In this document: positions 7,201 to 51,757 of the stretch, one piece after another
Layout: every line of letters begins with the position of its first letter
Numbering within the stretch: the stretch's first letter is position 1
Assembly (NCBI RefSeq): GCF_026914265.1
Contig: NC_069124.1
Coordinates: 25,430,489 to 25,494,488 of the forward strand
Direction: 5' to 3'
DNA: 64,000 nt
DNA from: Mya arenaria
Taxonomy: Eukaryota; Mollusca; Bivalvia; Myida; Myidae
Notes under the pieces: generated by a model
The model's database searches: none
Seen by the model: only the letters and a program-made list of their open reading frames with translations
What the model was told of the DNA's origin: nothing
Made by a program: the position numbers and the translations under genes

Positions 7201-10200
7201 AAAATACATGAGTTCCATATTCATAAAATAACTTTGGATCTTTATTCATCAATGCTTTGCAGTTCTGTTTCATCATTTCTATTCAGTGGAAGGCTCAACA
7301 TTGTTTGTGTTGGTACTTCATTCATCAATGCTTCGTGGTTCTGTTTCATCATTTCTATTCAGTGGAAGGCTCAACATTGTTGGTGTTGGTACTTCATTCA
7401 CCAATGCTTCATGGTTCTGTTTCATCATTTCTATTCAGTGGAAGGCTCAACATTGTTGGTGTTGGTACTTCATTCACCAATGCTTCGTGTTTCATCATTT
7501 CTATTCAGTGGAAGGCTCAACATTGTTTGTGTTGGTACTTCATTCATCAATGCTTCGTGGTTCTGTTTCATCATTTCTATTCAGTGGAAGGCTCAACATT
7601 GTTGGTGTTGGTATTTCATTCATCAATGCTTCGTGGTTCTGTTTCATCATTTCTATTCAGTGGAGGGCTCAACAATGTTGGAGTTGGTACTTCATTCATC
7701 AATGCTTCGTGGTTCTGTTTCATCATTTCTATTCAGTGGAGGGCTCAACAATGTTGGAGTTGGTACTTCATTCATCATGCTTCATGGTTCTGTTTCATCA
7801 TTTCTATTCAGTGGAGGACACAACATTGTTGGTGTTGGTACTTCATTCATCAATGCTTCATGGTTCTGTTTCATCATTTCTATTCAGTGGAAGGCTCAAC
7901 ATTGTTGGAGTTGGTACTTCATTCATCAATGCTTCATGGTTCTGTTTCATCATTTCTATTCAGTGGAAGGCTCAACATTGTTGGTGTTGGTACTTCATTC
8001 ACCAATGCTTCATGGTTCTGTTTCATCATTTCTATTCAGTGGAAGGCTCAACATTGTTGGAGTTGGTACTTCATTCATCAATGCTTCATGGTTCTGTTTC
8101 GTCATTTCTATTCAGTGGAAGGCTCAACATTGTTGGTGTTGGTACTTCATTCATCAATGCTTCATGGTTCTGTTTCATCATTTCTATTCAGTGGAAGGCT
8201 CAACATTGTTGGTGTTGGTACTTCATTCATCAATGCTTCATGGTTCTGTTTCGTCATTTCTATTCAGTGGAAGGCTCAACATTGTTGGTGTTGGTACTTC
8301 ATTCACCAATGCTTCATGGTTCTGTTTCATCATTTCTATTCAGTGGAAGGCTCAACATTGTTGGAGTTGGTACTTCATTCATCAATGCTTCATGGTTCTG
8401 TTTCATCATTTCTATTCAGTGGAAGGCTCAACATTGTTGGAGTTGGTACTTCATTCATCAATGCTTCATGGTTCTGTTTCATCATTTCTATTCAGTGGAA
8501 GGCTCAACATTGTTGGTGTTGGTATTTCATTCATCAATGCTTCGTGGTTCTGTTTCATCATTTCTATTCAGTGGAGGGCTCAACATTGTTGGTGTTGGTA
8601 CTTCATTGATCAATGCTTCATGGTTCTGTTTCATCATTTCTATTCAGTGGAAGGCTCAACATTGTTGGAGTTGGTACTTCATTCATCAATGCTTCATGGT
8701 TCTGTTTCATCATTTCTATTCAGTGGAAGGCTCAACATTGTTGGTGTTGGTATTTCATTCATCAATGCTTCGTGGTTCTGTTTCATCATTTCTATTCAGT
8801 GGAGGGCTCAACAATGTTGGAGTTGGTACTTCATTCATCAATGCTTCGTGGTTCTGTTTCATCATTTCTATTCAGTGGAGGGCTCAACAATGTTGGAGTT
8901 GGTACTTCATTCATCAATGCTTCGTGGTTCTGTTTCATCATTTCTATTCAGTGGAGGGCTCAACATTGTTGGTGTTGGTATTTCATTCATCAATGCTTCG
9001 TGGTTCTGTTTCATCATTTTTATTCAGTGGAGGGCTCAACATTGTTGGTGTTTTACTGACAAAGCTTAAGTTAATCATTAGTTATCAGTTCTTAAAATAA
9101 ATGCAGCATGTTATCATTATTCATATACATATATACCAGTACTTATTTGGAAATAACTCTGTATGGAATATATTGACATAAACATTTGACAGTTTTTTTA
9201 TGTGTTAAAGCACATGACCCTTCTTGCTTTAAAAATTGTCAAGCTATAACCCTTGATATACTGAAAAGCAGACGATAGTCTGCTCCAAGGAGCTCATGTT
9301 TAAAGTGACACTCTTATTCAAAATCAATACGTATGCATGTATAACAAACCTAAATTTTGAGTGATAAACCTGAGACTACTAACTAAATAATGCATCTATG
9401 AAAAATATTTATCACTGATACCAGGATTGTAACCGTGTATTCAATAGCTGAAAACGCAAAAATATTAAATGATTAGTGAGTGCTAAAAGACAATATACTG
9501 TGATCTACTATCGTCTCATAAGGTAGAAATACCGTGTTTTCTGCACCTTTCTGTCAAAATACAAGCATTATCCTTCATAAGAACCATTGTTTTCGACATT
9601 TATTCATCCTTTTTGGTATATAAAAACAATTGTATGAATTGTGGAAAATCTTTTTTGGGAGTAAGAGTGCACAGTCACAATAATTCTATTTATTGTCCAT
9701 ATTTCAGCAATCCATGAGAACAGCTTTATTATATTCATCGTCTGTTCCTGGCTCTTCATGCTTACCACCCTGTATCTGTGTAAAATGGCGGCCAGAAAGG
9801 ATCTTCAGGTATTTTTTTCTGTGATTCTTTTTTCATTGGTCAAAATTCCTTGTATTTTGGCTTGATCGAGCTTTTACTTGGCCATGAATTGGGGGATTTT
9901 AAAATAGTTTGGCATACATTTTCACCATGAAAAGCCAATGTGTTTTGTGCAAGAACAATAATAAAGTTTGGTCACACTTAAGGGTCATTGGTCATTTTTT
10001 TAATCTTTTTGAAGAATCAAAACTTAACATGTCGCCAAAATTATATCCTTAAAAAATGTCACATCAAACTTTATTATTACATGTACTGCCTACCTGTGAA
10101 ATTATGCATAGTCAGGCGCATTTTCAGAGTATCAATATTGGCTTTAATGTTTACCGCATTAAGCACCTTGAATAACTGATAAAAACAGAAAATTGCGTGT

Positions 10201-15604: not shown

Positions 15605-18600
15605 TTAGCTCACCTGTCACGTAGTGACAAGGTGAGTTTTTGTGATCACTCTTCGTCCGTCGTCCGTCCGTCCGTCCGTCCGTCCGTCCGTTCACAATTG
15701 CTTGTGAACACAATAGAGGTCACAATTTTGACCTAATCTTTATGAAACTTAGTCAGACTGATCATCTCTATAAAATCTAGGTCAAGTTCGATATTGGGTC
15801 ATCTGGGGTCAAAAACTAGGTCACTAGGTCAATTAGTAGAAAAACCTTGTGAACACAATAGAGGTCACAATTTTAGCCTAATCTCAATGCAACTTGGTCA
15901 GAATGGTCATCTCTATAAAATCTAGGTCAAGTTCGATATTGGGTCATCCGCGGTCAATAATTAGGTCACTAGGTCAATTAGTAGAAAAACCTTGTGAACA
16001 CAATAGAGGTCACAATTTTAGCCTAATCTCAACGCAACTTGGTCAGAATGATCATCTCTATAAAATGTAGGTCAAGTTCGATATTGGGTCATCCGCGGTC
16101 AACAACTAGGTCACTAGGTCAATTAGTACAAAAACCTTGTGAACACAATAGAGGTCACAATTTTAGCCTAATCTCAATGCAAATTGGTCAGAATAATCAT
16201 CTCTATAAAATCTAGGTCAAGTTCGATATTGGGTCATCCGCAGTCAATAACTAGGTCACTAGGTCAATTATTAGAAAAACCTTGTGAACACAACAGAGGT
16301 CACAATTTTGACCTAATCTTTATGAAACTTGGTCAGACTGATCATCTCTATGAAATCTAGGTCAAGTTCGATATTGGGTCATCTGGGGTCAAAAACTAGG
16401 TCAGTAGGTCAATTAGTAGAAATACCTTGTGAACACATTAGAGGTCACAATTTTAGCCTAATCTCAATGCAACTTGGTCAGAATGATCATCTCTATAAAA
16501 TCTAGGTCAAGTTCGATATTGGGTCATCCGCAGTCAATAACTAGGTCACTAGGTCAATTAGTAGAAAAACCTTGTGAACACAATAGAGGTCACAATTTTA
16601 GCCTAATCTCAATGCAAATTGGTCAGAATGATCATCGCTGTAAAATGTAGGTCAAGTTTGATATTGGGTCATTCACGGTCAATAACTAGGTCACTAGGTC
16701 AATTAGTACAAAAACCTTGTGAACACAATAGAGGTCACAATTTTAGCCTAATCTCAATGCAACTTGGTCAGAATGATCATCTCTATAAAATCTAGGTCAA
16801 GTTCGATATTGGGTCATCCGCGGTCAATAACTAGGTCACTAGGTCAATTAGTACAAAAACCTTGTGAACAAAATAGAGATCACAATTTTAGGCTAATCTT
16901 AATGCAACTTGGTCAGAATGATCATCTCTATAAAATCTGGGTCAGGTTCGATATTGGGTCATACGCAGTCAATAACTAGGTCACTAGGTCAATTATTAGA
17001 AAAACCTTGTGAACAAAATAGAGGTCACAATTTTAGCCTTATCTTAATGAAACTTGGTCAGAATGATCATCTTAACATATGCTAGGTCAAGTTCCATATT
17101 GGGTCAACCCAGGTCAAAAACTAGGTCACTAGGTCAATTAGTAGAAAAACCTTGTGAACACAATAGAGGTCACAATTTTAGCCAAATCTCAATGCAACTT
17201 GGTCAGAATGATCATCTCTATAAAATGTAGGTCAAGTTCGATATTGGGTCATCCGCGGTCAACAACTAGGTCACTAGGTCAATTAGTACAAAAACCTTGT
17301 GAACACATAGAGGTCACAATTTTAGCCTAATCTCAATGCAAGTTGGTCAGAATAATCATCTCTATAAAATCTAGGTCAAGTTCGATATTGGGTCATCCGC
17401 AGTCAATAACTAGGTCACTAGGTCAATTATTAGAAAAACCTTGTGAACACAACAGAGGTCACAATTTTGACCTAATCTTTATGAAACTTGGTCAGACTGA
17501 TCATCTCTATGAAATCTAGGTCAAGTGCGATATTGGGTCATCTGGGGTCAAAAACTAGGTCAGTAGGTCAATTAGTAGAAATACTTTGTGAACACATTAG
17601 AGGTCACAATTTTAGCCTAATCTCAATGCAACTTGGTCAGAATGATCATCTCTATAAAATTTAGGTCAAGTTCGATATTGGGTCATCCGCGGTCAATAAC
17701 TAGGTCACTAGGTCAATTAGTAGAAAAACCTTGTGAACACAATAGAGGTCACAATTTTAGCCTAATCTCAATGCATCTTAGTCAGAATGATCATCGCTAT
17801 AAAATGTAGGTCAAGTTTGATATTGGGTCATTCACGGTCAATAACTAGGTCACTAGGTCAATTAGTACAAAAACCTTGTGAACACAATAGAGGTCACAAT
17901 TTTAGCCTAATCTCAATGCAACTTGGTCAGAATGATCATCTGTATAAAATCTAGGTCAAGTTCGATATTGGGTCATCTGCGGTCAATAACTAGGTCACTA
18001 GGTCAATTAGTACAAAAACCTTGTGAACACAATAGAGGTCACAATTTTAGGCTAATCTTAATGCAACTTGGTCAGAATGATCATCTCTATAAAATCTGCG
18101 TCAAGTACGATATTGGGTCATACACAGTCAATAACTAGGTCACTAGGTCAATTATTAGAAAAACCTTGTGAACAAAATAGAGGTCACAATTTTAGCCTTA
18201 TCTTAATGAAACTTGGTCAGAATGATCATCTTAACATAAGCTAGGTCAAGTTCCATATTGGGTCAACCCAGGTCAAAAACTAGGTCACTAGGTCAATTAG
18301 TAGAAAAACCTTGTGAACACAATAGAGGTCACAATTTTAGGCTTAACTCAATTCAACATGGTCAGAATGATCATCTCTAGAAAAATATAGGTCAAGTTCG
18401 ATATTGGGTCATTCGCGGTCAATAACTAGGTCACTAGGTCAATTAGTATAAAAACCTTGTGAACACAATAGAGGTCACAACTTAAGCCTAATCTAAATGT
18501 AACTTGGTCAGAATAATCATCTCTATAAAATCTAGGTCATGTTCGATATTGGGTCATTTACCTTCAATAACTAGGTCACTAGGTCAATTAGTAGAAAAAC

Positions 18601-20569
18601 CTTGTGAACACAATAGAGGTCACAATTTTAGCCTAATGTTAATGCAACTTGGTCAGAATGATCATCTCTATAAAATCTGGGTCATGTTCGATATTGGGTC
18701 ATCCGCAGTCAATAACTAGGTCACTAGGTCAGATATTAGAAAAACCTTATGAACACAATAGAGGTCACAATTTTAGCCTAATCTTTATGAAACTTGGTCA
18801 GACTGATCATCTTTATAAAATCTAGGTCAAGTTCCACATTGGGTCATCCGCGGTCAATAACTAGGTCACTAGGTCAGATAGTAAAAAAACCTTGTGAACA
18901 CAATAGAGGACACAATTTTAGCCTAATCTTAATGAAACTTGGTCAGAATGATCATCTTAACATAAGCTAGGTCAAGTTCCATATTGGGTCAACCCAGGTC
19001 AAAAACTAGGTCACTAGGTAAATTAGTAGAAAAACCTTGTGAACACAATAGAGGTCACAATTTTAGGCTTATCTCAATTCAACTTGGTCAGAATGATCAT
19101 CTCTAGAACAATATAGGTCAAGTTCGATATTGGGTCATTCGCGGTCAATAACTAGGTCACTAGGTCAATTAGTATAAAAACCTTGTGAACACAATAGAGG
19201 TCACAACTTAAGCCTAATCTAAATGTAACTTGGTCAGAATAATCATCTCTATAAAATCTAGGTCATGTTCGATATTGGGTCATTTACCTTCAATAACTAG
19301 GTCACTAGGTCAATTAGTAGAAAAACCTTGTGAACACAATAGAGGTCACAATTTTAGCCTAATGTTAATGCAACTTGGTCAGAATGATCATCTCTATAAA
19401 ATCTGGGTCATGTTCGATATTGGGTCATCCGCAGTCAATAACTAGGTCACTAGGTCAGATATTAGAAAAACCTTATGAACACAATAGAGGTCACAATTTT
19501 AGCCTAATCTTTATGAAACTTGGTCAGACTGATCATCTTTATAAAATCTAGGTCAAGTTCCACATTGGGTCATCCGCGGTCAATAACTAGGTCACTAGGT
19601 CAGATAGTAAAAAAACCTTGTGAACACAATAGAGGACACAATTTTAGCCTAATCTTAATGAAACTTGGTCAGAATGATCATCTTAACATAAGCTAGGTCA
19701 AGTTCCATATTGGGTCAACCCAGGTCAAAAACTAGGTCACTAGGTAAATTAGTAGAAAAACCTTGTGAACACAATAGAGGTCACAATTTTAGGCTTATCT
19801 CAATTCAACTTGGTCAGAATGATCATCTCTAGAACAATATAGGTCAAGTTCGATATTGGGTCATTCGCGGTCAATAACTAGGTCACTAGGTCAATTAGTA
19901 GAAAAACCTTGTGAACACAACAGAGGTCACAACTTAAGCCTAATCTTAATGTTACTTGGTCAGAATGATCATCTCTATAAAATCTAGGTCAAGTTCGATA
20001 TTGGGTCAATTACCGTCAATAACTAGGTCACTAGGTCAATTAGTAGAAAAACCTTGTGAACACAATAGAGGTCACAATTTTAGCCTAATGTTAATGCAAC
20101 TTGGTCAGAATGATCATCTCTATAAAATCTGGGTCATGTTCGATATTGGGTCATCCGTGGTCAATAACTAGGTCACTAGGTCAGATATTAGAAAAACCTT
20201 ATGAACACAATAGAGGTCACAATTTTAGCCTAATCTTAATGCAACTTGGTCAGAATGATCATTTCTATAACATCTAGGTCAAGTTCGACATTGGTCCATC
20301 CGCGGTCAATAACTAGGTCACTAGGTCAATTAGTAAAAAAACCTTGTGAACACAATAGAGATCACAATTTTAGCCTAATCTTAATGAAACTAGGACAGAA
20401 TGATCATCTTAACATATGCTAGGTCAGGTTCGATATTGGGTCAACCCGGGTCAAGTGGCCTCTAGGGGCCATACTTTTCATTGGATCTTTATGATAATAG
20501 GTCAGAATGTTCACTTTATTTAGCAAAGCTACAGGTGAGCGATACAGGGCCATCATGGCCCTCTTGTCT
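15605..20569 (+). mobile_element. Helitron-like (Helentron/HINE-type) element with a 33-unit core of 145 bp
   Basis: The 5' end reads TTAGCTCACCTGTCAC. Its word GCTCACCTGT recurs inverted as ACAGGTGAGC at 20531-20540, followed by the hairpin AGGGCCATCATGGCCCT and CTCTTGT. After the 5' end comes a TCCG microsatellite (about 15657-15690), then tandem 145-bp units from 15701 to about 20460. Each unit contains CTTGTGAACACAATAGAGG and GGTCACTAGGTCAATTAG. Subterminal inverted repeats, a microsatellite, a tandem core and a 3' hairpin are the layout described for DINE-1/HINE Helentron derivatives. The small 71-aa frames inside are by-products. No helicase is present. Confidence 0.82.
15657..15690 (+). 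repeat. TCCG tetranucleotide microsatellite
   Basis: CCGT/TCCG repeats occur about eight times between the 5' terminus and the first 145-bp unit of the Helitron-like element. A microsatellite in this position is part of the HINE/DINE-1 plan. Confidence 0.85.
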
Positions 20570-25637: not shown

Positions 25638-26803
25638 TTAGCTCGACTATTCGAAGAATAGGTGGGCTATACTACTCTCCCCAGCGTCGGCGTCTGGTTA
25701 AAGTTTTAGGGCAAGTTGGGATTTTCACTTATAAGTCCAATACCCTACATTCAATTGACTTAATACTTCACACAGTTGTTTAGGGCCATCACATGATGAG
25801 GTTAGATAACTCCAAATTATTTTTTACACAGATTATGGCCCATGATGGACTATGGAACTTAGATTAAAGTTTTAGGGCAAGTTGGAATATTTATTAATAA
25901 CTTCTATATCCTTTGTTCAATTGACTTAATACTTCACACAGTTGTTCAGGACCATCACACAATGAGGTTACATAACTCCATATTATCCTAAATACTAGTT
26001 ATGGCCCCTGATTGACTTAGGTTAAAGTTATAGGGCAGGTTAAAGTTTTAGGGCAAGTTGGAATTTTCACTTAAAACTCCAATACCATTCATTCAATTGA
26101 CTTAATACTTCACACATATGTTCAGAGCCATCACATAATGAGGTAAGATAACTCCATATTATATTTTATACAAATTATGGCCCCTGATTGACTATGGAAC
26201 TTAGGTTAAAGTTTTAGGGCAGGTTGGGATATTGTTTTATAACTTCTATACCTTTCATTCAATTGACTTAATACTTCACACACTTGTTCAGGACCATCAG
26301 CCAATGAGGTTACATAACTCCATATCCTTAATACAAGTTATGGCCCCTGATTGAATTAAGTTAAAGTTTGAGGCAAGTAAAAGTTAAGGGCAAGTTGGGA
26401 TTTTAATAAAAAACTTCTATACCGTTCATACAATGCACTTAATAAATATAAAGTTATTTACGACTATCTTACAACAAGAAAAATAACTCCGTTTTAAGCC
26501 TAAATACAAATTATGGCCCTTGAATTTTTTTATTTTTTTTTATATATTTTTTTTTTAATTTCCTTTGAAAGGCATATTTGTATATTCTTAACCACATTTT
26601 CATAATGGGAAATCAAGTTATTTGAATGACTTGCGTCATTGTTTGGGCGGGCTGGTTTTTAGGGCAGCATTAAAGTCACCTTATGTATCGAATAATTTTA
26701 GTTCGGTTTGACATAAAGAGACCAAACTTGGTATTATTACATCATTATTGTATTCTAAGTCAAAGCGGCGTAGTCGAGCGCGCTGTCTTACGACGGCTCT
26801 TGT
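25638..26803 (+). mobile_element. Helitron-like element, family 3, with ~170-bp core units
   Basis: The 5' end is TTAGCTCGACTATTCGAAGA. The subterminal word GCTCGACTA recurs inverted as TAGTCGAGC at 26771-26779, then the hairpin GCTGTCTTACGACGGC and TCTTGTT close the element. The core has about five units of 165-176 bp anchored on TTAAAGTTTTAGGGCAAGTT and ACTTAATACTTCACACA. An opposite-strand sister lies at 39449-40278. Confidence 0.78.
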
Positions 26804-36700: not shown

Positions 36701-39700
36701 TTGTAACTGTGTATTTAATAGCTGAAAACGCAAAAATATTAAATGATTGGTGAGTGCTAAAAGATTTACTGGGATTAGCTATCCTCTCATACGGTAGAAA
36801 ACCTGTGTTTTCTGCACCTTTCAAATTAAACTCGTTATTTCATAAAAACATTGTTTTCGACATTCATTCATCCTTTTCGGTATATTAAAACTTTTGTATT
36901 AATTGTGGTAAATCCTATTTGGGAGTAAGAGTGCATCTTTAAATACACATTTGTTATGCCATCCCATTAAGGGCAGGGCACTTTTTTGGGCCATACCTGA
37001 TGTTACCATATACCAGCACTTAATTGGATAAAACTTTGATGATGGGTTGACTAATAAGGCTTGTTTGCATATTGAAATGGTATTATTTGGTAAGTAGTAG
37101 TTATTGAATAAATATGGACCAATGAATATATACAATTTGTTTATCCAAACCAAAGATTTAACCAGTTTTTATACAATTGGCTGGTGTACATGAAATATAC
37201 AAAGATTTGATATCTAACAACATCCATGTCTTGATAAAATGCATCATTTCAAAATACAGAACATCTCATGACCAAAGGATTTTAAAAGTCACAATTTTGT
37301 CCTGAATTCAATTTTTATCTACATTTGTATAATTACATAACATACTAATTATTATACATGTAAGCTCTTAAAGTGTTTCATTGACAGTCACAAATTAAAT
37401 GAACCAGTAGGAACATGATTGTCAACATTTAGGACATTGTAATGACTTAACCACATTGCTGAACTATCACATGAGTAAACATCTTCATACTTCAACAAAA
37501 GTGACAAAACTTTACAAGATATGTCTGTTGAAAATATGATTTTTTTTCAAAGATTGTTTATTTTAAGGCCTTCAATCTAAAGTGATAAGGGCAAGGTTGG
37601 GCCAATTTTTTAATTACTCACATTGTCCATGTCCGGTGAGGATTGGTCAAAATCTCCTCTCTTTAAGCAATTCAAGGGTCATAACTCTAATGTGAGTGGG
37701 GTGACATGTCTGGTTATCCAACTTGGCCGTGATATTCTGCCCATACTAATAGTGTCAAAGTTTTGTGATGATTTTCAGAAACCTCTCCAGTCATAGACTG
37801 AACTTTATGTTTTTTGTAATAGGACCATTAAAGGGCCATTACTTTGTAATGACATGGGCGACAAGGCTGGTTATTGAATTTCGTTGAGACATTCTGTCCA
37901 CCGCCGTATTGTTCAAGTTTAGTGATGATCGGATAAAAGTATCTGGAGTAAAAGCAGTGACAACATCCAAAGAGGATGCCGCCCGCCCACCGCAGGATAA
38001 TTCATGACACATCCTGCCTACAACAGGCGTATAAAAGAATCAAAAGTTTGTCTGCTAAACTGAACATTACTAACTAAATATGGAGTTTATGTGGTAGTAA
38101 GCTAGAAGCCAGAAGGACTCTAAGACAGACAGTAAAGTGCAAAAAAAATTGTATCGATAGATTACTCAATACAGCATCAAATCCCTACCGGTACTGCCTC
38201 GCTCTGTAATGGCGGCCCACGACTTCCGAATGTTGTCCACACATGTTGGGGAGGCCTGGTTAAAGGCATTTGTTAGTACCTTGTTGAACGCCTCACACGG
38301 TGTTAGGCTTGGAAACTGCCAGATAGGGGCGGAGCCAGCCAGAGCCCTAAAGTATAATTGGTCGACAATTATCAGTTTATTGATTTAAAGAAGGCTTTTT
38401 GTGGAACAACAGTTGTCCGCATACATGTACATAGTTTACTAAATATTTCATCTTGCAGCATAAGAATCCTAAAATTCACAACTGTGTAGAGCTGGCTAGG
38501 AATGTTTGTAGTAGACTAGGATCACATAAATGGTTACCGGTAACTAAATAACAATGTCATTTAAAAACAGAACGGAACAGAAAATCTATTTTGACTTTAG
38601 TTTAAACTTTATTTAATTTTACAACGATTGTGAAATAAGTTATAACAACTTATATTAATCACTCTCGTTGGCACGATGTTGCGCGAGAGTGTGATCTTGT
38701 GTTGTGGGGGAAACCGGAGAACCCGGAGAAAACCCACTTGTCCGGCTTGGTGACCACTAACCAAACTCACATGCGCCCAGGCCGGGAATCGAACCCGGGT
38801 CGCCTTGGTGAGAAGCGAGTGCGCTTACCACTGCGCTACCCTGACAACCATTTTGACTTTAAAAAGTTCATCAACACATCACACAAATACACAAATTCAA
38901 TAAAAACATGCATAATTACATTATATAATGTGTTTTAAAAGATTTTTATAGTACAAATCTTTTTAGAAAATACACATATCAAGCGTGTACAATGGTTAAT
39001 ATGTAAGTTAAAAAGTTAAACAAATATATATGTAAGTTAGAAAGTTCAATAAATTATTTCACACAGCCAATTTTAAATGAAAAGTCATAGAATGAGACTA
39101 TGAAAAAGAAAACACGCATTCATTAATAATCAGTAACGATTGAAAATTGGAGAAAAAACCATAATTGCTTATCAGAAATAATCTGACAGGCCATTTTGAT
39201 TATTCCTTGCTACATAATGGAAACTGTTTCAAGTGAAATTAGAGGAGCTGTGTTACAACAGTCATCTAAAAGAACTATGAAAATGACTTTCCAGAATTTG
39301 GAACTCCAGGACTCCATCACAGCCTATTGAGTCACCAAAAAGAAAGCTTATTATTACTTTGTTTTGAAAAAGTATATTTATAAAAAAAGCAATCATTAGA
39401 TTCTTATGCAAGAGAATTTTTGTTAATGTCAGCAATAATAAATATATACAAGAGCCGTCGTAAGACATTTTTGATGCTGCCCTCCCACCACCCAAAAAAT
39501 GACGCAAGTCATTCAAATAAATTGATTTCCCATTATGAAAATGTTGTAAAGAATATACATACAAATATGCCTTTCAAAAGAAATTAAAAAAAAAAAATAA
39601 TAATAATAATAATAAAAAAAAATCAATGACCATATAGTATGGCCCTCCTTGTTTTCCCTTGGTAATAAACTGGTAAAGAATGTAAAAATGTGCCTGTCAA

Positions 39701-42646
39701 AATAAATAAAAAAATAAATAAAAAAAACATATTCAATGGACATAATTTGTATTTAGGGTTAAAATGGAGTTATGTTTCTTGTTGTAAGATGGTCGTGATT
39801 AATTTTAAATTTTATTAAGTGCATTGAATGAAAGGTATAGAAGTTTTTTTATTAAAATCCCAACTTGCCCTTAACTTTTACTTGCCTAAAACGTTAACCT
39901 TATTCAATCAGGGGCCATAACTTGTATTAAGGATATGGAGTTATGTAACCTCATTGAGTGATGGTCCTGAACAATTGTGTGAAGTATTAAGTCAATTGAA
40001 CAAAGGGTATAGAAGTTATTTATAAATATCCCAACCTGCCCTAAAACTTTAACCTGAGTTTCATAGTCAATCAGGGGCCATAATCTGTGTAAAGAATAAT
40101 ATGGAGTTATCTAACCTCATCATGTGATGGCCCTGAACAACTGTGTGAAGTATTAACTCAATTGAATGAAAGGTATTGGACTTATAAGTGAAAATCCCAA
40201 CTTGCCCTAAGACTTTAACTGGACGCTGAAGCTCGGACGAGTAGTATAGCCCACCTATTCTTTGAATAGTCGAGCTAATAAATCAATCATCACTAACTTT
40301 GGAGGCAAACGGTCAATTTAAAAAAAACAACCTAATGATTAGAATCTTGGTAAATCTCTTACAAGCTAACACATTTTTGACAACACTTTTGACAATACTT
40401 GAATTTCTGCTTCCACTTACCCTACAATGACGTTGGGATACCTAATCCTCATCCACGCAGATAGCATCCCACCATACGAGCCGCCAAATGCAACCACTGA
40501 GCTATTAGTGGCGCCCGGCAGTGTTGCCTTCAGATGGCTTATCAGTACAGCAAAGTCAGCCAGAGCCTGCTCCGAAGTGAGGTAGTTCATTTTTGTTGGA
40601 GACTGAAGAAGGACATACCATTTTTAAAAATGGTTTCTAAGTTCTATGTAAGTGTACCATGTTTTGAAATTATATTAATATATAAGTATTGTCAGAACAT
40701 TGTTTTTAATCATAAAAAAGTATGTATTAGTATTAAATGAATATTTATCATCCCTAACAAATAATGCCATCTATTTTTTCTCATGGATAAACAGACAGTA
40801 ATCAAACAATAGCATGCTAAAATCATGGTTACTTATATAACATAAATCTAAATAAAACATTCATATTTTAAGCTCTTATATGATTGTATCACCTTATATG
40901 CTTCTGGCCCATATGGAATAGATTCTCCATAATACCTGTGCTCAGCAAACACCAGCAAAGCTTTGAATTCTGCTGCTATGTCCCACATAAAACCCTGCAA
41001 TATGAAAAATAATGATTTGAATATCCACGGATGAGCGAATCACCGCAATTTTTAAACATAGCAAATGCTTGGGTTCAGTATGCTTAGAGGTTGAAAATTA
41101 CTGGTAGTCCAAAATCATAATTGTTATTCTCCTCAAACCCTTTAAAATGTATTTGCATGTCCAATGCGCAATGGACAACAAAAAGGCGATGCCAACAGCA
41201 AAAATTTAAACTTTAAATAGAAGGTTTTTTTCTGAACATTGTCTGTTCAAAATTTATGTTTATGAATAGATATGTTTCAAAAAATGAAGTGTACAATATA
41301 AAACAGTTTATAGGTCCATGATATAATGTACATAAAAAGATAATTTATGTTGTTAACTGTAATTGTGATTTATTGCACTGATGCAGACCGTATTATTACA
41401 GAACCAGGCGATGTCCCCCTCATTTCCTGTGTAGAAAAAGATTGGGCCTCCATCTTTGTTCCAGAACTGCTCTGCAATCAGGTAGCGTTGCTTGTAGGTG
41501 TCTGGATTTGAGAACCCAAAATGATCCACCTGAAAGAAATGTCATGTTTTGGTCAATCTCACGACAATAATAAATTGTGACAGGAGATAATCATGTTTAT
41601 GATGTTATATGCCAATTATACCTTTAAATATGGAGCAAAAGGAGTGAAGGAGTATTTCGATAAATTTTTGACAGACCTGATGAGGCATCCACAATGGAAT
41701 TAGACTGCCTTATTCTTTTTTGCCCGATTTAATAAAATGTGTTACAATTTATAAAAGTCCAACAAGCTCTTATTTAGTATTGATAAAAATAATTATAACG
41801 TAATAATGTCAGTTTTATTTTTCATGTCAACTAAAACACAGACATTTTTCACACTCTGTGTACATAATTTGTTGAATTCTATAATTTTTTGGGGCATATA
41901 GAACAATGAGATAAACAACACACCTGAAGACATTTAAAGCAACTGTGCACCAGATGATCAATTTGCAAGAAAAAAAGAAAATTGTCGAAAAACTGACATA
42001 AACTTGTTATTAATGTGTAACAATGCATTAAAACTTACTAACTGAAGTACCACATAGTTTACAATTTATTTAAGTTTAGCAGTTATTACTGGGTATGTCT
42101 ACCTAGTAGAGTTCATTCTTTACGCTTGATTGGGTAGTCGATGTTAATAATGTTATTACCAAGTTAGGTATATAGCTTAAATATACCACTCGTTTGGAGT
42201 AAGCCTTTGTAGCACAGTGGATACAACACTGGACTGCAATTTTGGCGACACGGGTTTGAACCCCATCTCCGACTTTTTTTTTCCATTTTGGTACTTATTT
42301 TACAATTATGATAGCAAATCGTAACACATTCCATTAAATAATTGTCCTAAGATTCGTTACAGAAAAAACTTTTTTTGTTGCCAATCTGGTGTACAGTCCC
42401 TTTAATGCCTATAAGTATATCATCATTCAAACTTGACAGTTCAGAAAGATACCGAGATACAAAATGTAAAATGAGCCAAGTGCCTGCAGAGTGAGAGAAT
42501 GTAAAATAACTTACTGGCTGAACGAAAAAATCTGTTCTGTAGTCATAACCAGAAAGTATGACTTGATCTTTAATGCCAATACGCCGACTGTAAGTCAAAG
42601 AAATAAGCAAAATAGCTGTAAAGCATTGAATAGGTATGAACTTCAT
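27721..42646 (-). CDS. PRCP: Lysosomal Pro-X carboxypeptidase (peptidase family S28)
   Basis: Nine exons in transcript order: 42646-42515, 41529-41389, 40994-40893, 40602-40421, 38346-38189, 35380-35208, 30267-30106, 29007-28820 and 27916-27721. All join in phase to give 477 aa, against about 496 in human. The enzyme removes a C-terminal residue after proline in lysosomes or after secretion. Residues 1-20 form a signal peptide. Diagnostic blocks are YTGNEGDIAWFCNNTGFMWD, FAEHRYYGES and LTSEQALADFA. The nucleophile elbow is GGSYGG (Ser167), followed by NGLLDPW (Asp418) and GAHHLDLR (His443). Spacings of 251 and 25 residues equal those I recall for human Ser179/Asp430/His455. WFCNNT and SLGDLGWDYQ favour PRCP over DPP7. 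The donor of intron 2 (ACG/GTCTGC) is weak. Intron 6 hosts an antisense C1q gene. Confidence 0.95.
27975..28240. repeat. Interspersed repeat with C/G-rich flanks, copy 1
   Basis: Words such as GAGGGCATACCCGGC, CCCCCCTAAAAT, TATAGGAGAAAAAA and GCCCCCTCTAACATC are shared in order with 29470-29735, and more loosely with 50560-50775. The family is unidentified. No terminal inverted repeats are evident. Confidence 0.55.
29470..29735. repeat. Interspersed repeat with C/G-rich flanks, copy 2
   Basis: It matches copy 1 in order (GGAGGGCATACCCGGC, CCCCCCTAAAATAG, TATAGGAGAAAAAA, AACATCGAATCCTGAATCCA). It contains a run of 17 C at 29606-29622. It lies in PRCP intron 7. The family is unidentified. Confidence 0.55.
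29832..30190 (-). repeat. Tandem triplication covering the 3' end of PRCP exon 7 and its donor
   Basis: Three units of about 122-128 bp are anchored on AAATATTGGA at 29832, 29960 and 30082. The last includes the end of real exon 7. The middle unit keeps about 60 nt of exon sequence (CTTGGATGGGACTATCAG) with an intact GT donor, but has lost 19 nt and has no upstream acceptor. The first unit is more decayed. These are exon fragments inside intron 7, probably unused. Confidence 0.75.
30277..30299. repeat. AT dinucleotide microsatellite
   Basis: About ten AT repeats lie just upstream, in transcript sense, of the PRCP exon 7 acceptor, in the polypyrimidine and branch region of intron 6. Confidence 0.8.
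31693..32547 (+). CDS. Secreted C1q-domain protein, single exon, nested antisense in a PRCP intron
   Basis: The frame starts at ATG 31693 (284 aa) or at the better Kozak ACCATGG at 31699 (282 aa). Residues 1-24 form a signal peptide rich in leucine. Residues about 35-95 are a heptad-like coiled coil (LEDRVKEQERKIQDHEQK). A basic linker ends in RIRR (residues 143-146), followed by a C-terminal C1q domain from about 150 to 284. The domain shows FSAYLTH, the GNAYNPITGVFTVPVDGVYL core and a closing FTTFSGVFMYA. The family forms trimers; in bivalves it is hugely expanded, with roles as lectin-like recognition proteins. There is no collagen region. A poly(A) signal lies at 32607. No introns are seen, which suits either a single-exon C1q gene or an old retrocopy. 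Ligand unknown. Confidence 0.9.
   Translation: MTMALSMPLLVLILFIYLPHGYLFQQNAQGTDVDDKFGSLAEKFESLHQHVLNLEDRVKEQERKIQDHEQKIAELENELNDYKKYFDQASQEEKQDKPKISGSKRTFLSKMFGQKRVFSKTLKTKPELMTLNGHVSNPNINSRIRRNVEGEFAFSAYLTHIIDHMAPGHVIKCDKTLLNDGNAYNPITGVFTVPVDGVYLLTFHIDSYTETHVTLVVDGGNTADSVSEPHVYRNGFEIMSGNTALIRLRERQSVWLEEYSNADGTVTSGEAYRFTTFSGVFMYA
32880..33330. repeat. Two diverged units of about 205 bp between the C1q gene and its decayed copy
   Basis: Blocks at 32885-33090 and 33115-33320 share words in order: CAGCCCAGACATT/CAGTCCAGACATG, CTGTATAT, ACACATCATCTTT/GATATGTCATCTTT, AAATCCCTCCCTGCATG/AAGCCCTCCATGCAC. They look like a decayed tandem pair. No function is inferred. Confidence 0.4.
33560..34390 (+). 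pseudogene. Decayed second copy of the C1q gene
   Basis: The sequence follows the intact gene from the signal-peptide region (CLPHGYLFQQNA) through the coiled coil (LENEINDYINYLRQQ) and FLSKMFGQK. It continues into the C1q core (CATTAAATGTGACAAAACAC, GATGGCAACGCTTAT). Several frameshifts and stops interrupt it, including one early in the coiled coil and one after the SKMFGQK region. The N-terminal signal is also altered. It is a tandem duplicate that has lost coding capacity. An AATAAA follows at 34464. Confidence 0.88.
35882..36047. mobile_element. pogo/Tigger-like MITE (Tc1/mariner group) with TA target site
   Basis: The left end CAGTCAAATCTCGTTATG and the right end (complement) CAGTCAAATGTCGAAGG are inverted copies, each bounded by TA. 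The interior repeats TATGTCGAA and TATATCGAA words. CAGTCAAACCTCG-like ends with TA duplication are typical of Tigger/pogo derivatives. It is 166 bp and non-coding. Confidence 0.75.
36572..36943. mobile_element. MITE family B, copy 2
   Basis: The left end TTAAAGTGACACTCTTATTC is mirrored by GGGAGTAAGAGTGCATCTTTAA. The interior closely follows copy 1 at 9301-9671. TTAA at both edges is compatible with a TTAA target duplication. It lies in PRCP intron 5. Confidence 0.8.
37560..38040. repeat. Decayed repeat of the GGTCATAACTCT type
   Basis: AAGGGTCATAACTCTAATGTG and AAAGGGCCATTACTTTGTAATG, with intervening TCTGCCCATACTA / TCTGTCCACCGCC words, form about two diverged units. They end in a CCGCCCGCCCACCGC stretch. 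Such blocks recur in bivalve introns. The termini are unclear. Confidence 0.4.
38600..38849 (-). mobile_element. tRNA-derived SINE with 12-bp target duplications
   Basis: On the minus strand the head reads TAGCGCAGTGGTAAGCGCAC (A box) and later GGGTTCGATTCCC (B box). A conserved body follows (GTGGGTTTTCTCCGGGTTCT) and then an AT-rich tail. Perfect 12-bp duplications ATTTTGACTTTA flank it at 38588-38599 and 38850-38861. The body resembles the Meta-SINE/Rudi type known from molluscs (from memory). It lies in PRCP intron 4. Confidence 0.9.
39449..40278 (-). mobile_element. Helitron-like element, family 3, opposite strand
   Basis: Read on the minus strand it begins TTAGCTCGACTATTCAAAGA and ends TCTTACGACGGCTCTTGTA, matching the element at 25638. 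About three core units carry CCCTAAAACTTTAACCTGAG and TTGTGTGAAGTATTAA (plus-strand words). The subterminal inverted word before the 3' hairpin is lost, so it is older or partly deleted. It is non-coding, in PRCP intron 4. Confidence 0.75.
41934..42405. mobile_element. TTAA-type element, family C, containing a tRNA-like segment
   Basis: The left end TTAAAGCAACTGTGCACCAG and the right end (complement) TTAAAGGGACTGTACACCAG are clear inverted repeats. The TTAAAGGRR pattern recalls the Kolobok-type T2 elements of Xenopus. Inside, 42205-42272 reads like a tRNA: GTAGCACAGTGGATACAACA (A-box-like) and CGGGTTTGAACCC (B box). Either a SINE inserted into the element, or the family carries a tRNA-like promoter. 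It lies in PRCP intron 1. Confidence 0.72.
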
Positions 42647-42822
42647 TTTGTAAACAAAATCACATGACTGTCATGTGATAAAATTTGATCATGGTCAATT
42701 GACGTTTACATAATCAAGCGTCTGGCTGGACTGGTTTTAATATTTATCAAAAAGATTTACTTTTTACAAACAAAATATAATAACCAGTCGAAGACACGTT
42801 TACTTCCGGGATAATAACAGAC
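42647..42822. promoter_or_regulatory. Bidirectional promoter between PRCP and SPCS3
   Basis: Only 176 bp separate the two divergent start codons. At 42659-42679 the arms ATCACATGAC and GTCATGTGAT face each other around one T, giving two E-boxes of M-box form (TCATGTGA). An ETS-like ACTTCCGGG lies at 42802-42810, close to the SPCS3 start. There is no TATA box in a fixed place. M-box sites are bound by the MiT/TFE factors that drive lysosomal genes, which would suit PRCP; binding is inference. Confidence 0.7.
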
Positions 42823-45800
42823 ATGAACACGGCTTTAGCAAGATTGAATACAATCTTTGCCTTCACGCTTAGCGTGATGGCAGGATTGACCTTTCTTTGT
42901 TTTCTTTCAACCTTTTTCAACGAACACAAGGCCGACGTCTCAATTAATACCGCAAAAGTTATTGTGTAAGTTGATTTTAAATCACCCGGCTTGCAGTGTT
43001 GTCAGTTTTTTTTATATTTTATTTTCTTTATAATGACTGTCAATTAAGTCAGCATGCCTGAATATATCTCAGGAAGACTGCAGTTATGGTGTTCGGAACT
43101 ATGCCTGGGGATCTAACAGTTCATAGATGAACACCAAACACTGTATCTGTTTAACACCAAAATTAGTAAAGCCGTTTCATATTATAGTAAACCTGGGAGG
43201 AAAAGTTTGCCTGGTGCATAGTCTAAATAATAGACATGTTCTACGGGATTCTTCCAATCCCTAATGTCACAGACCTATAAACCATGGTTTATAGGTCTGT
43301 GCTAACGTCTAAACGGGTTTGTGCAAGAACTGGGTTGGTTTGAAAAATATTGAAATTGAATTAAGTGAAGTATTTTATGTTTGAAATGGATGATAAAGGT
43401 TTATATTTATATTTTACCATGTAAGTACAAAGCTATTTTGCACAAAACAAATGATCTACCTTTCCAATGAAAGAAACATGACTATGCCACCTCCGACTAG
43501 CTTCGTGATAGACCTCGTAAATACAATTGTAACAACTCAGCCATGACCGAAGTGCTCGGATTGTTGTATAACTATGAACTGCAGCCTTGCGTTATGTTTT
43601 GACAGAATGAAATGAAGAAAACCCCATCAATCTGAATGTATATTTATTTTTTGTGTACGGAACTAATATAAAATAACATTATCTAGTAATATTTCTTGTT
43701 TTTATGATATTTTATGGACGCAATATGCTCGGAAACCCACTTTTGGTACAAAAAAATTTGTACATTAAGGATTTGCCATATCAAAAATCATAAAAAAAAT
43801 CTGTCAACGTACAATTGTTTGGACTAGCCTGGTGCAGGGCTCAAAACTTTGACCACCAGAGCACTAGAAAGGTGCTCTTACCCACTGAGCCTACTTGGCG
43901 GCTAATTCTTATCCACACACACACTTCACTTCCCCATTCACCTTTGAGGGCAATCCAGGCAGTCTTGTCTATTATTTCTGACACCATTTAAGTTAACCTG
44001 GATGGAATAGTGTGCCCGGTGCAGGTCTCGAACCCATGACCATCCAAACTATAGCAAGGCGTTCTACCCTCTAAGCTAACCGCAAGGCAGGTTCTTACTC
44101 GCACACACTACACTATTGACCTGTCAACCCTAAGAAGTGCCTCCAAATAAAATTGTTTCATCAATGATCATAATTAATTAACTATATGATAATGCATATT
44201 ACGTAGAACTTAGTTTATGTTTGTAGCTAACTTAAATATAACTATTCTTTGCTCTTACATTTCAGAAAGAATGTTCCTGACTACAGTGCTGGCCGAGAGA
44301 AAAATGACCTTGGATTTATTGTGTTTGACCTTCAGACAGATATCCTTTATTGAAATAACTGTTTTAATAAAAGTATTGATAAATTAGAGAAGATCAAAAT
44401 TTGCCTTACAGTCAAACTACACCAAAATCCTTGTATTAATATCCCGAAAAAAATAGTATTCTCTTTATGAGATTCAACATATATCTTACTTCTTAAGCAT
44501 ACATGATATTATGTTTTATAAGGAACAATTGACAAGCCCTGTTTGGCAAGTGACCCTGCAAATCTACTCGCCCTGCACAAAATTTACTCGCCCTATATTT
44601 TTTTACAGACAAATATTTTATCAGCCTTATTATTGTAACAGTACTTTTTAACTGCAAGATTGAATTAAGATGGAAACCAGTCCGTCTATTACCTGTTGTT
44701 ATCGCTTACAAACTATTAAAAACATTCTTATGATTCATTTAATATTCATTTCATAATTCAATTAATAATTTGATTTCTTCGGTTCCCTGAGGATTCATCT
44801 TCAACTGTCCACAACATATAATCAATTAAGCATACTGAGTTCATGCATTCGATAAATTTTATACTTGCCCATCATGACATCATATTACAGGTTTCAGTTT
44901 AACTGTTCTTTGTTCTTACATCTATGTTTTTCACAATAATTTGGTTTTCGGAAATAAAATGGATTTACATGTCTTTTAATCTGGAGAATCTGACCCCTGG
45001 CGGACAAGTTTGGATTGAATTTTTACTGGTTCGACCTCGATATTCAAGCGCAAGTGCAAGCAGGCGAGTGGATTTATTGATGCCTGATTGAATAATGAGC
45101 TGCACTATTGTTCCCTTCAAATAAATTTATAATAGTCAAAGTGGGTATTACAAATCAATTATAGAAAAACCTCCATTTTCCTGTAAAAAAAAATCTGCAA
45201 AATTAGCTAAGTTTAATTGTAACTTCTCAACTAGTGTGGTCTGATTTTTTTAAACTTTGGAAAATAATATACTAAAGCACTATGTTGTTCATATTACATA
45301 CCCCCAACACTTAAGGAAAACATGAAAGCTCTGATTAATAACAGTTATTGAAACTTAAGCCAATAAAGTAAAAGCTTGTTTTTTAACAAACCTGTTTTCC
45401 TTAACAATTCAATTGAAAAATAACTTTGATTCTCCTGGAATATTTTTATCTAAAATAACATTCATTGTAACTACATTGTGTGGTTGGAACTTTCTGAAAC
45501 TTAACGAAAAAAATATTCTAAGGCACAATTATGTTGTTCATAATTTATGCTCACAACACTCGAGGAAAATATGAAAGCTCTAACAGTTATTAAAACTAAA
45601 ACAGTGAAAGCTGGGTGTTTTTTTTAAACAAACCTGTTTTCCTTAACAGCTTTGTACATTTGACCAGAATCTTCAACTGGAATGTGAAGCAGTTGTTTCT
45701 CTACCTATTTGCAGAATATGAGACGGAAGATCATGTAAGTAGACCTAGTTGACTGTAGCTTTTTGCTTGGATCCTTTTCACTGCTGATTTAACTAAATCC

Positions 45801-48203
45801 ATTAATCTACTACATACATGTAGTAATACGTCCCTTTGTAGTTAAAAATGTAAACAAACATCTTTTCTTACATATATTTTTCTATTAAAGCAAATTTGGC
45901 CAGAAATGTCTGAAGCCTAATACTATAGATAGCATGCAGGTATTTTTAAAAATATAAATTGCAGAGAATTGAAGTGCATGCTATACACAGTATAATATGT
46001 TATACTACGTGTCATATATCATGCAAGTCCTGCAACCAGTTTTGCTGTTATAACATTCAGATATAAATGATAGCTGGGGAAAAAGGTTAGATAAATCATA
46101 ATGTTGCCTGATAGATTAAAAGACAAGTTTTACAGCTTGATTTTTAAGGTCATTATAAATAAGTCTTCATTTGAATGCAAGCTCTAAAATTTTTCTTCAA
46201 ATATTTCTTTTTTTCTTAATTTACCAGAAGCTGAACCAAGTTGTAGTTTGGGATAAGATCATTCGCAGGGGAGAGAACTCAATACTGGACTATAGGAAAG
46301 CCAACACCAAGTACTACTTCTGGGATTTTGGTAATGGTTTGAGGTAAGGATTGTTTAGTTTAAGATTATACGTCCTATGTAGTGAGAGATAAAATAATTT
46401 GTAGAGTAGAGAAGTTACTCTCGGACTTCAGGGGTCCGTTCATCAATAATTATAGGAGCAATTTCATACTACTAGAGACTTTTCAAAAGTAGTATAGCAC
46501 TGTTTTATATCTTTATTAGGTATTGAATTGATCCTATGATTCTTTATGAAGCGGACCCCATCAAACTAAACACAAAATATTTATTCTAGAAAAACCGGTC
46601 CAGTACCTAAATTTGGCAGGTACCTAAATCCGGGCCACTCCTTCTGGAGTACTTATGTAACCTTATATCATCTTTTAACGATACCATCTGAAAGAGTGTA
46701 ACACAACTGAATAAACATCTTTTAATATCCTTGTTGTTTGATTGCTATTAAGCATGAAGACTGTTTTTACATGTTGCCAAAGATATAGTTAAATGTCACA
46801 AGGGGAACTGACATACTGTATAATGAATGCACAAATTTTGTTAGATAAAAAGTTGGTCAATATTGTGTTAGAATCATGTTGCCTGTTGGCCTTTTATGAG
46901 AAGTTTGTACCCTTATTTTGCTTTCCAATAATATTCTAAAAGTGGCTGATATTTGAGTCCAAGGAAAAAGGCCTTAACTTACCTGGGTACTTTTCATATA
47001 TGTATTTTTTTTATTTTCAAATGATTTTTTGTTTTTTGAGTGAATGACATGAGTATTTAGTAATGATGATTGTCGATGCTGACCTTGTTTAAAAGATGTT
47101 GAAGAAAAATGTAAAAAAATGCCTGATTTAGGTATTTGACCAGTTCGGTAATGATTTGAAGTAAGAACAGTTAGGTTTTTAATAAGGTATACTTCCAGAT
47201 TAATTTGACTCAACAGGGCATATACATATATGTATACTTATTGTTAAAATAGTTGGGTGTTGCAATAAACTGGTTTACATTGTCCAAACACATTTAATGC
47301 TCTTTGCCATTATTATTAAGTCATTGTTATAAAAAGAGAAACTTGTACCTTGATAATAACTGCCTCACTGGACACAGATCAAACTCGTGTACAACCAGGC
47401 TGGAAATTGAACCAGGATAGTCATGGGTAGACATAAAAGGCTTTTAACACTGCAGTGCTTTCAAAACCGCATTTGATGATCTGGGTAAATGACATAAATA
47501 GCTAAAATTCTATGCCCTTTTCACTAAACAATACCAATCTTGCGTGGTTTCAAAGTACAATTGTAGATCAAAATCTGTGACCATGATTACAAACAGTCTC
47601 AAGACTGAGTCTAGATTCAGACCAAGAAAAGCACTTTAATTTATCAAAGAAAATCATATTTTTCCATTTGTTTTACAAAAATAAAGGTAGGTAATGAGCC
47701 ATGTAAAATTGTAAGAAAATTCATCTTATTTTATCATCAATTCTCAACTTGAAGATTTGCTGTTTTGCCACTTGAGTCTGAACTCAGACTGTTTGTAATC
47801 TTGGCCCCTGGGCTGAGGCTCTTGTATTCTGCCACTATTTTTTCAAGACTCTGAAATTGCTATCATGCATGAATTAGATCACAAAAGAACTGCTATTATA
47901 TGTTGATGGAATTGACATCAGCATGTTTTTGGTATATTTTATTATCAATGTTATATTTTTAATAGTACGAAACTTGTGACACCATGTATTTATTCCCCTA
48001 CTTATGGGGAAGGCATATCATATGGATTTGCCTAGTTTAATGACTAAATGGGTTATTTTTTTACTTCCAGGGGAAACAAGAATGTGACTCTAAGCTTGTC
48101 ATGGAACGTTATTCCTAATGCCGGAACTCTGCCAAAGATCATGGGGACAGGACAGCACAAGATTGAATTTCCCGCAGAATATAGCCCCAATAGATTTCAA
48201 TGA
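42823..48203 (+). CDS. SPCS3: Signal peptidase complex subunit 3
   Basis: Five exons: 42823-42965, 44266-44339, 45658-45734, 46228-46343 and 48071-48203. They are in phase and give 180 aa, the same as I recall for the human protein. SPCS3 (yeast Spc3) is a single-pass ER membrane subunit that stabilises the signal peptidase and its catalytic subunit. The N-terminus MNTALARLNTIFAFTLSVMA leads into the membrane anchor (about residues 11-33). The lumenal part carries DLGFIVFDLQTDL, IFNWNVKQLFLYLFAEY, NQVVVWDKII, KYYFWDFGNGLRGNKNVTLS and SWNVIPNAGTLP, all diagnostic. The C-terminal 20 residues are less conserved. Introns 1, 3 and 4 are GT-AG; intron 2 is AT-AC with U12-type signals. Intron 1 hosts nested transposons. 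The start lies 176 bp from the divergent PRCP start. Confidence 0.96.
43219..43826. mobile_element. Non-autonomous TIR transposon with 10-bp target duplication, copy 2
   Basis: The ends TAGTCTAAATAATAG and CAATTGTTTGGACTA match the copy at 1718-2411. The 10-bp word GCCTGGTGCA flanks it on both sides (43209-43218 and 43827-43836). Interior blocks such as GGGATTCTTCCAATCCCTAA and GTGTACGGAACTAATATAAA are shared. It inserted into tRNA-like SINE sequence of SPCS3 intron 1 and itself carries a 34-bp palindromic insert. Confidence 0.88.
43268..43301. repeat. Perfect 34-bp palindrome inserted in the transposon
   Basis: Arms of 17 bp (CACAGACCTATAAACCA and its exact complement) meet without a spacer at 43284/43285. 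The flanking 7-mers CTAATGT (43261-43267) and CTAACGT (43302-43308) differ by one base. The sister element reads straight through with a single CTAACGT, so the insert is exactly 34 bp plus a 7-bp near-duplication. Confidence 0.92.
43837..44105 (-). repeat. Two decayed tRNA-like SINE heads in SPCS3 intron 1
   Basis: On the minus strand, GGTTAGCTTAGAGGGTAGAA with GGGTTCGAGACCTGCAC (about 44085-44010) forms one A/B-box pair. AGGCTCAGTGGGTAAGAGC with GTTTTGAGCCCTGCACC (about 43900-43835) forms a second, more decayed pair. Both have the CTGCACC context into which the 10-bp-TSD transposon inserted. They are too diverged for functional tRNA genes. Confidence 0.6.
44340..45657 (+). other. U12-type AT-AC intron of SPCS3
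   Basis: The intron opens with ATATCCTTT, the exact U12 consensus donor of the AT-AC class. It closes GTAC at 45657. A perfect U12 branch site TTCCTTAAC lies at 45639-45647, about 11 nt before the acceptor, within the short distance this spliceosome requires. Splicing here gives ACA-G/AT-TTG, encoding the conserved DLQTDLTRIFNW. No GT-AG alternative keeps the frame with the same protein. Confidence 0.93.
45230..45648 (+). repeat. Diverged 242-bp tandem duplication that copied the U12 branch site
   Basis: Blocks at about 45230-45406 and 45477-45648 align in order: ATGTTGTTCATA, AACACT, GAAAGCTCT, ACAAACCTGTTTTCCTTAACA. TTCCTTAAC therefore occurs twice, at 45397-45405 and 45639-45647. Only the second has an AC acceptor at the right distance. 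The first copy would be a decoy. Confidence 0.82.
46431..46559. mobile_element. Foldback MITE with about 35-bp inverted ends
   Basis: The left arm GGGGTCCGTTCATCAATAAT is mirrored at the right by GGGGTCCGCTTCATAAAGAA (complement). The symmetry continues through ATAGGAGCAATTTCA / ATAGGATCAATTCA. The total is 129 bp, in SPCS3 intron 4. Its superfamily is unknown. Confidence 0.7.
47360..47450 (-). repeat. Strongly decayed SINE fragment
   Basis: CAAACTCGTGTACAACCAGG and CTGGAAATTGAACCAGG run parallel to the SINE at 38600-38849 (CAAACTCACATGCGCCCAGG, CCGGGAATCGAACCCGG). Target duplications are not recognisable. It lies in SPCS3 intron 4. Confidence 0.35.
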
Positions 48204-50898: not shown

Positions 50899-51403
50899 AG
50901 ATGGTAAAATACAAAATGGAAGATTTAGAAACAGATAGTAAAATACAAAATGGAAGATTTAGAAACAGATAGTAAAATACAAAATGGAAGATTTAGAAAC
51001 AGATAGTTAAATACAAAATGGGAGATTTAGAAACAGATAGTAAAATACAAAATGGAAGATTTAGAAACAGATAGTTAAATACAAAATGGAAGATTTAGAA
51101 ACAGATAGTTAAATACAAAATGGAAGATTTAGAAACAGATAGTTAAATACAAAAGATTTAGAAACAGATAGTTATATACAAAATGGAAGATTTAGAAACA
51201 GATAGTTATATACAAAATGGAAGATTTAGAAACAGATAGTAAAATACAAAATGGAAGATTTAGAAACAGATAGTAAAATACAAAATGGAAGATTTAGAAA
51301 CAGATAGTAAAATACAAAATGGAAGATTTAGAAACAGATAATTAAATACAAAATGGAAGATTTAGAAACAGATAGTTAAATACAAAATGGAAGATTTAAA
51401 AAC
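50899..51403 (+). repeat. Minisatellite, 34-bp unit, about 15 copies
   Basis: The unit joins AAAATACAAAATGGAAGATT to TAGAAACAGATAGT head to tail. The main variation is AGTAAAATAC versus AGTTAAATAC or AGTTATATAC. One unit near 51150 has an internal deletion. It lies in the intergenic region between the convergent SPCS3 and Fat-like genes. Confidence 0.95.
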
Positions 51404-51757
51404 AAAGTCCCGTTCAGAATGATATTTCTTGGAATGACTGTTGCTGTCTTTTTTTTTATGCATAATATGCCCTTGTGGGCATAAGTAAAACAGTATGTTA
51501 ATCATTCTTATGAAAGTTTTTCAAAACCACATTTCAGGGCCACAACAACTTTTTTATTTAATGTGTTACCCTCTTTATTTAAAAATTATATCAGACCTTA
51601 ATTTGGTCAGTATCTGAAACGCTAAGATACCACTAAAGCTGGGAACAGTAGTACGAGATCAATATCAGAAAACAACATTGACCATAGTGAGCAGCATAAG
51701 GATTAACTTCTTCGAAAACAGTTTCTTTATTCATCTATAAAAAACTACACACCAACT

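Follow-up and report, generated by a model that had tools for sequence, protein, structure and literature searches.

A predicted U12-type AT-AC intron in the signal peptidase subunit gene SPCS3 of Mya arenaria

Minor (U12-type) introns have been described in signal peptidase genes and in invertebrates. In human cells deficient in RNPC3, the transcripts of both SPCS2 and SPCS3 are reported to be defective (mis-spliced) (PMC3958305). The fly has 19 U12-type introns, among which the text counts eight AT-AC introns and the table holds at least nine AT-AC rows; sixteen of the 19 have a U12-type human orthologue (PMC2831892). Three AT-AC introns are tabulated for Trichinella spiralis, all with ATATCCTTT and TTCCTTAAC, and one of these, 182 nt in length, is found in the signal peptidase subunit SPC25 (PMC2846911). 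Molluscs are a named case of relative minor-intron enrichment (PMC10639083). The excerpted text of PMC7367187 contains nothing that speaks against a U12-type AT-AC reading of the intron described below. As to SPCS3 itself, PMC3958305 was the one article found that ties the gene to U12-type or minor introns, and no literature was found that joins SPCS3 with ZRSR2, or Spase22-23 with U12. Oyster does not appear among the matches listed for U12-type or AT-AC introns. The excerpts of the fly U12-intron papers that were checked have no mention of signal peptidase, nor of Spase or CG5677, which we take to be the fly names of SPCS3.

The window, i.e., the whole stretch of 64,000 nucleotides of Mya arenaria DNA that was analysed, carries an SPCS3 gene whose second intron is very likely of the U12-type AT-AC class and would be removed by the minor spliceosome. 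It shares with that class the elements ATATCCTTT and TTCCTTAAC, a short distance from branch site to AC and the presence of the four minor snRNAs in the genome. No signal differs from the class; what does differ is the duplication of the branch-site region within the intron. The two subunits reported as mis-spliced in RNPC3-deficient human cells, SPCS3 and SPCS2, have U12-type introns here too, and intron 2 is presumably the same minor intron as in human SPCS3. The likeness to Trichinella spiralis consists of ATATCCTTT and TTCCTTAAC in AT-AC introns, one of them in a signal peptidase subunit, but the Trichinella intron is located in SPC25 (SPCS2 family) and not in SPCS3, and measures 182 nt against 1318 nt here. 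In the initial annotation AT-AC introns were described as rare, with signals seldom so complete outside vertebrates and plants. Special rarity is not supported in view of the published AT-AC introns of fly and Trichinella and the enrichment in molluscs; what fails is the statement on how complete the signals are. Because impairment of the minor spliceosome is reported to cause mis-splicing of human SPCS3, and because invertebrate cases are documented, intron 2 is very likely real and very likely an ordinary minor intron of known type. A housekeeping gene of secretion thus provides a clean case of a minor intron, and its sister subunit SPCS2 has one as well. This agrees with the published view that minor introns are old and have been retained, and it alters no open question.

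The gene consists of five exons between window positions 42823 and 48203 on the + strand, and the joined product comprises 180 amino acids (Table 1). Its identity as SPCS3, as originally proposed, was borne out by two protein comparisons. The product matches Pfam SPC22 with an E value of 6.2e-63 over profile positions 1-172 of 173, as expected of a full-length family protein, and residues 1-175 match chain 7p2p_B, the human signal peptidase complex subunit 3, with an E value of 1e-65. When the protein was compared with the whole genome, 5 matches were obtained from 8 candidates, every one of them within this gene. Introns 1, 3 and 4 are GT-AG introns with donors GTAAGT, GTAAGT and GTAAGG and with CAG acceptors; intron 1 is in phase 2.

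Table 1. Window coordinates of the SPCS3 exons, of the signals of intron 2 and of the duplication within it
Feature	Coordinates	Strand	Basis
SPCS3 exon 1, from its ATG (coding)	42823..42965	+	frame and protein match
SPCS3 exon 2, end ...GAC CTT CAG ACA G	44266..44339	+	frame
SPCS3 intron 2, predicted U12-type AT-AC, 1318 nt, phase 1	44340..45657	+	signals, frame, junction scoring
U12-type 5' splice site ATATCCTTT, exact	44340..44348	+	TCCTTT can pair with U11 and U6atac of this genome
Upstream copy of intronic duplication	45213..45406	+	self-comparison, 73% over 205 columns, E 2.9e-26
Second TTCCTTAAC, identical, in upstream copy	45397..45405	+	motif scan
Downstream copy of duplication, ending 1 nt past predicted active branch site	45461..45648	+	self-comparison
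U12-type branch site TTCCTTAAC, exact	45639..45647	+	11-nt complementarity with own U12, one A bulged
AC terminus (3' splice site)	45656..45657	+	coding exons joined in frame
SPCS3 exon 3, start AT TTG ACC	45658..45734	+	frame
SPCS3 exon 4	46228..46343	+	frame
SPCS3 exon 5, coding part; stop TGA 48201-48203	48071..48203	+	frame

The donor, the branch site, the AC terminus and the coordinates of the intron had all been given exactly in the initial annotation. The 3' end of the intron reads ...TTTGTAC. Counted from the branch motif, the terminal C lies 10 nt beyond the motif's last C and 11 or 12 nt beyond its two A residues. How often such signals arise by chance was estimated by simulating one 64-kb strand 60 times under a Markov-1 model, where a full set was defined as ATATCCTTT with TTCCTTAAC no more than 5 kb further on and an AC 8-12 nt after the latter. 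A simulated strand held on average 0.72 copies of ATATCCTTT and 0.53 of TTCCTTAAC, and the full set was encountered once in the 60 simulations (0.017 per strand), a figure that ignores the in-frame fit to the exon boundary. On the + strand of the window ATATCCTTT is present three times (25906, 44340 and 53991), and there is one exact full set, which is that of SPCS3 intron 2 and lies at the exon boundaries. The - strand of the 64-kb window displays no exact full set.

Genes for the minor spliceosomal RNAs were searched for in the genome, which comprises 1,216,080,610 bases in 18 contigs. Matches above the Rfam gathering cut-off were counted, and with 40-49 first-look candidates scored for each RNA the counts are lower bounds: at least three U12, two U11, two U4atac and four U6atac genes. 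All three U12 copies carry GTAAGGAAAAT, which is complementary to GTTTTCCTTAC over 11 nt with one A bulged and one G-U pair. Both U11 copies start with AAAAAGGG, in which AAAGGG pairs with TCCTTT of the donor over 6 nt (one G-U), and three of the four U6atac copies have AAAGGA, which pairs with the same TCCTTT over 6 nt. The fourth U6atac match (L012, C15:56114487-56114608) is diverged, is without the AAAGGA needed for pairing with the donor and is perhaps a pseudogene.

The order in which the snRNAs act at minor introns is established knowledge. At SPCS3 intron 2, ATATCCTTT would be read by U11 and then by U6atac, and TTCCTTAAC would be read by U12, with one bulged A as the putative branch nucleophile; the predicted 3' splice site would be the AC 10 nt beyond the branch motif. 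The signals, the reading frame, the protein match and the animal's own snRNA genes, with their complementarity to donor and branch site, suggest that the intron is spliced in the cell by this route.

Depletion of CENATAC in human cells was found to affect 92% of A-type minor introns (PMC8280824). Exon matches to Pfam CCDC84 (CENATAC) are present in the Mya genome, six in number, all on contig C8 and in two sets of three. In four of the six, the matching frame runs through one stop. Since three of the SPCS3 exon matches likewise have a stop read through, the stops in the CENATAC matches are taken to reflect reading past exon ends. The two sets are near-equal and 2 Mb apart (C8:20572338-20581075 and C8:22598087-22606213; L013-L018), and they may stem from a duplication of recent date or from a haplotype left uncollapsed in the assembly.

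SPCS2, the sister subunit gene, is found on contig C15 of the same genome, with three matches from 41112400 on. It has a complete U12-type intron of the GT-AG subtype, 742 nt long (L032 1662-2403, on C15), with GTATCCTT, TTCCTTAAC and a TTAG end. When the two sides are joined, the sequence passes through CVLS/YFFLMGV (the slash marks the junction), reading CVLSYFFLMGVLTVYT, and the joined piece of 97 residues matches SPC25 with an E value of 1.3e-27. Both signal peptidase subunits therefore carry U12-type introns in this species.

The reading frame bears on which splice junction is used. With 44339 spliced to 45658, the protein reads ...FIVFDLQTDLTRIFNWNV..., in alignment with human ...FITFDITADLENIFDWNV... 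If intron 2 is retained, a stop follows right after ...DLQTDILY, and use of the AG at 45649 with the donor at 44340 leads to a stop right after ...DLQTALYI. Junctions with intron starts at 44291-44420 and ends at 45559-45718, in five terminus classes, were scored against human SPCS3. Stop-free junctions that keep the frame amounted to 40 of the 398 tried, and the proposed AT-AC junction 44340-45657 had the top score (543). The runner-up, AT-AC 44349-45657, scored 530 and adds three residues; AT-AC 44342-45647 scored 529, and the best GT-AC junction, 44321-45647, scored 517. The original claim that only this splice restores the conserved DLQTDL...FNW protein is nearly correct, the junction being the best of the 40 in frame. 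One of the 40, the best GT-AG junction (44323-45649), overlaps the AT-AC pair and would allow the major spliceosome to remove the intron, with FIVF-VHLTRIFNW as the product and a net loss of three residues. Its acceptor TTTTCCTTAACAG carries a pyrimidine tract. The weak-looking donor TGT/GTTTGA, however, differs from the three GT donors of the gene, the DLQTD segment is lost, the alignment score falls to 516 as compared with 543, and use of this pair alone would leave the complete U12 signals unexplained; such a route is considered exceedingly improbable. A twintron arrangement, where splicing mainly uses the AT-AC pair and the GT-AG pair serves as a minor or regulated alternative, has a slim chance of being correct. 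It is consistent with the maintenance of the frame by each pair and with the alternative SPCS3 transcripts reported from human cells whose minor spliceosome is impaired (PMC3958305), but it depends on the same weak-looking GT donor. Removal by the minor spliceosome through the AT-AC pair remains the preferred reading.

A further question is posed by the second branch-site motif, which is part of a diverged direct duplication in the 3' part of intron 2 (73% over 205 gapped columns; the E value of 2.9e-26 refers to the window). The duplication had been overlooked in the initial annotation. In a longer alignment of the two copies, 161 of 190 ungapped columns are identical, and the final 22 nt of each copy, TTCCTTAAC included, are the same. 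Both sites might be used, at 45397 and at 45639; the upstream one would then act as an alternative branch point or serve for U12 docking. The identity of the motif in the two copies, inside the 22-nt run, is what suggests this. Against it, a run of 22 nt is unsurprising at such similarity (P 0.23), which led to the rejection of selection on the upstream copy. Also, the only AC or AG within 30 nt after the upstream TTCCTTAAC is an AC 19 nt on, ending at 45424, and its use as a 3' splice site would give DLQTV and an immediate stop. Use of both sites is thus judged very improbable. There is likewise a small chance that the amount of SPCS3 mRNA is tuned, either by a productive U12 docking site together with a decoy one or by the overlapping GT-AG pair. 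Most likely, the upstream branch site is a neutral leftover from duplication within the intron, and it looks like a functionless decoy. We read the arrangement as one where, after the local duplication, only the copy adjoining the exon stayed useful. With its duplicated branch site, the intron offers a modest natural experiment on whether U12 branch sites are chosen by their distance to the 3' end.

Two other origins of the duplicated region were considered and rejected. One was that the upstream duplication includes a dead copy of exon 3. This was suggested by the heptamer CTGGAAT, present in register at both 45435 and 45677. Past the branch site 13 of 35 positions agree in register (P 0.18), and local alignment was not above shuffled sequences (P 0.32); clear similarity therefore stops 1 nt past the branch site. 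The other was a dispersed repeat, of which no other genomic copy was found. A comparison of window positions 45150-45657 with the animal's own genome, by a DNA search that skips very common words, returned the self-match only (1 candidate). A 21-nt stretch of the branch site is found in the genome at two exact places, which are the two copies, and at three with 2 mismatches, as compared with 11 for a reversed control pattern. Pattern scans of viral contigs (5 matches) and of genome contigs (26 matches) gave none that was confirmed as a relative, and duplicated U12 branch sites do not appear among the literature matches listed.

Several other features of the window were noted. On the - strand, the interval 40417-41541 contains three open reading frames with matches to serine carboxypeptidase S28 (Pfam PF05577), positioned head-to-head with SPCS3. 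A hydrophobic start near 42647, seen by eye, may be the first exon of this S28 gene, and the S28 and SPCS3 genes may therefore share a short promoter region. Stretches that resemble tRNA by eye, with a B-box-like segment or its complement, are located at 42201-42280, 43835-43900 and 44017-44085 and are possibly tRNA-derived SINEs; the sole tRNA listed by Rfam at gathering score is at 38774-38845. Tandem arrays are present at 7240-9052 (76-base unit), 15701-20454 (145-base unit) and 50899-51404 (34-base unit). Arrays with a 166-base unit occupy 25696-26444 and 39813-40220; by eye the two look alike in opposite orientation, and they are perhaps a dispersed satellite.
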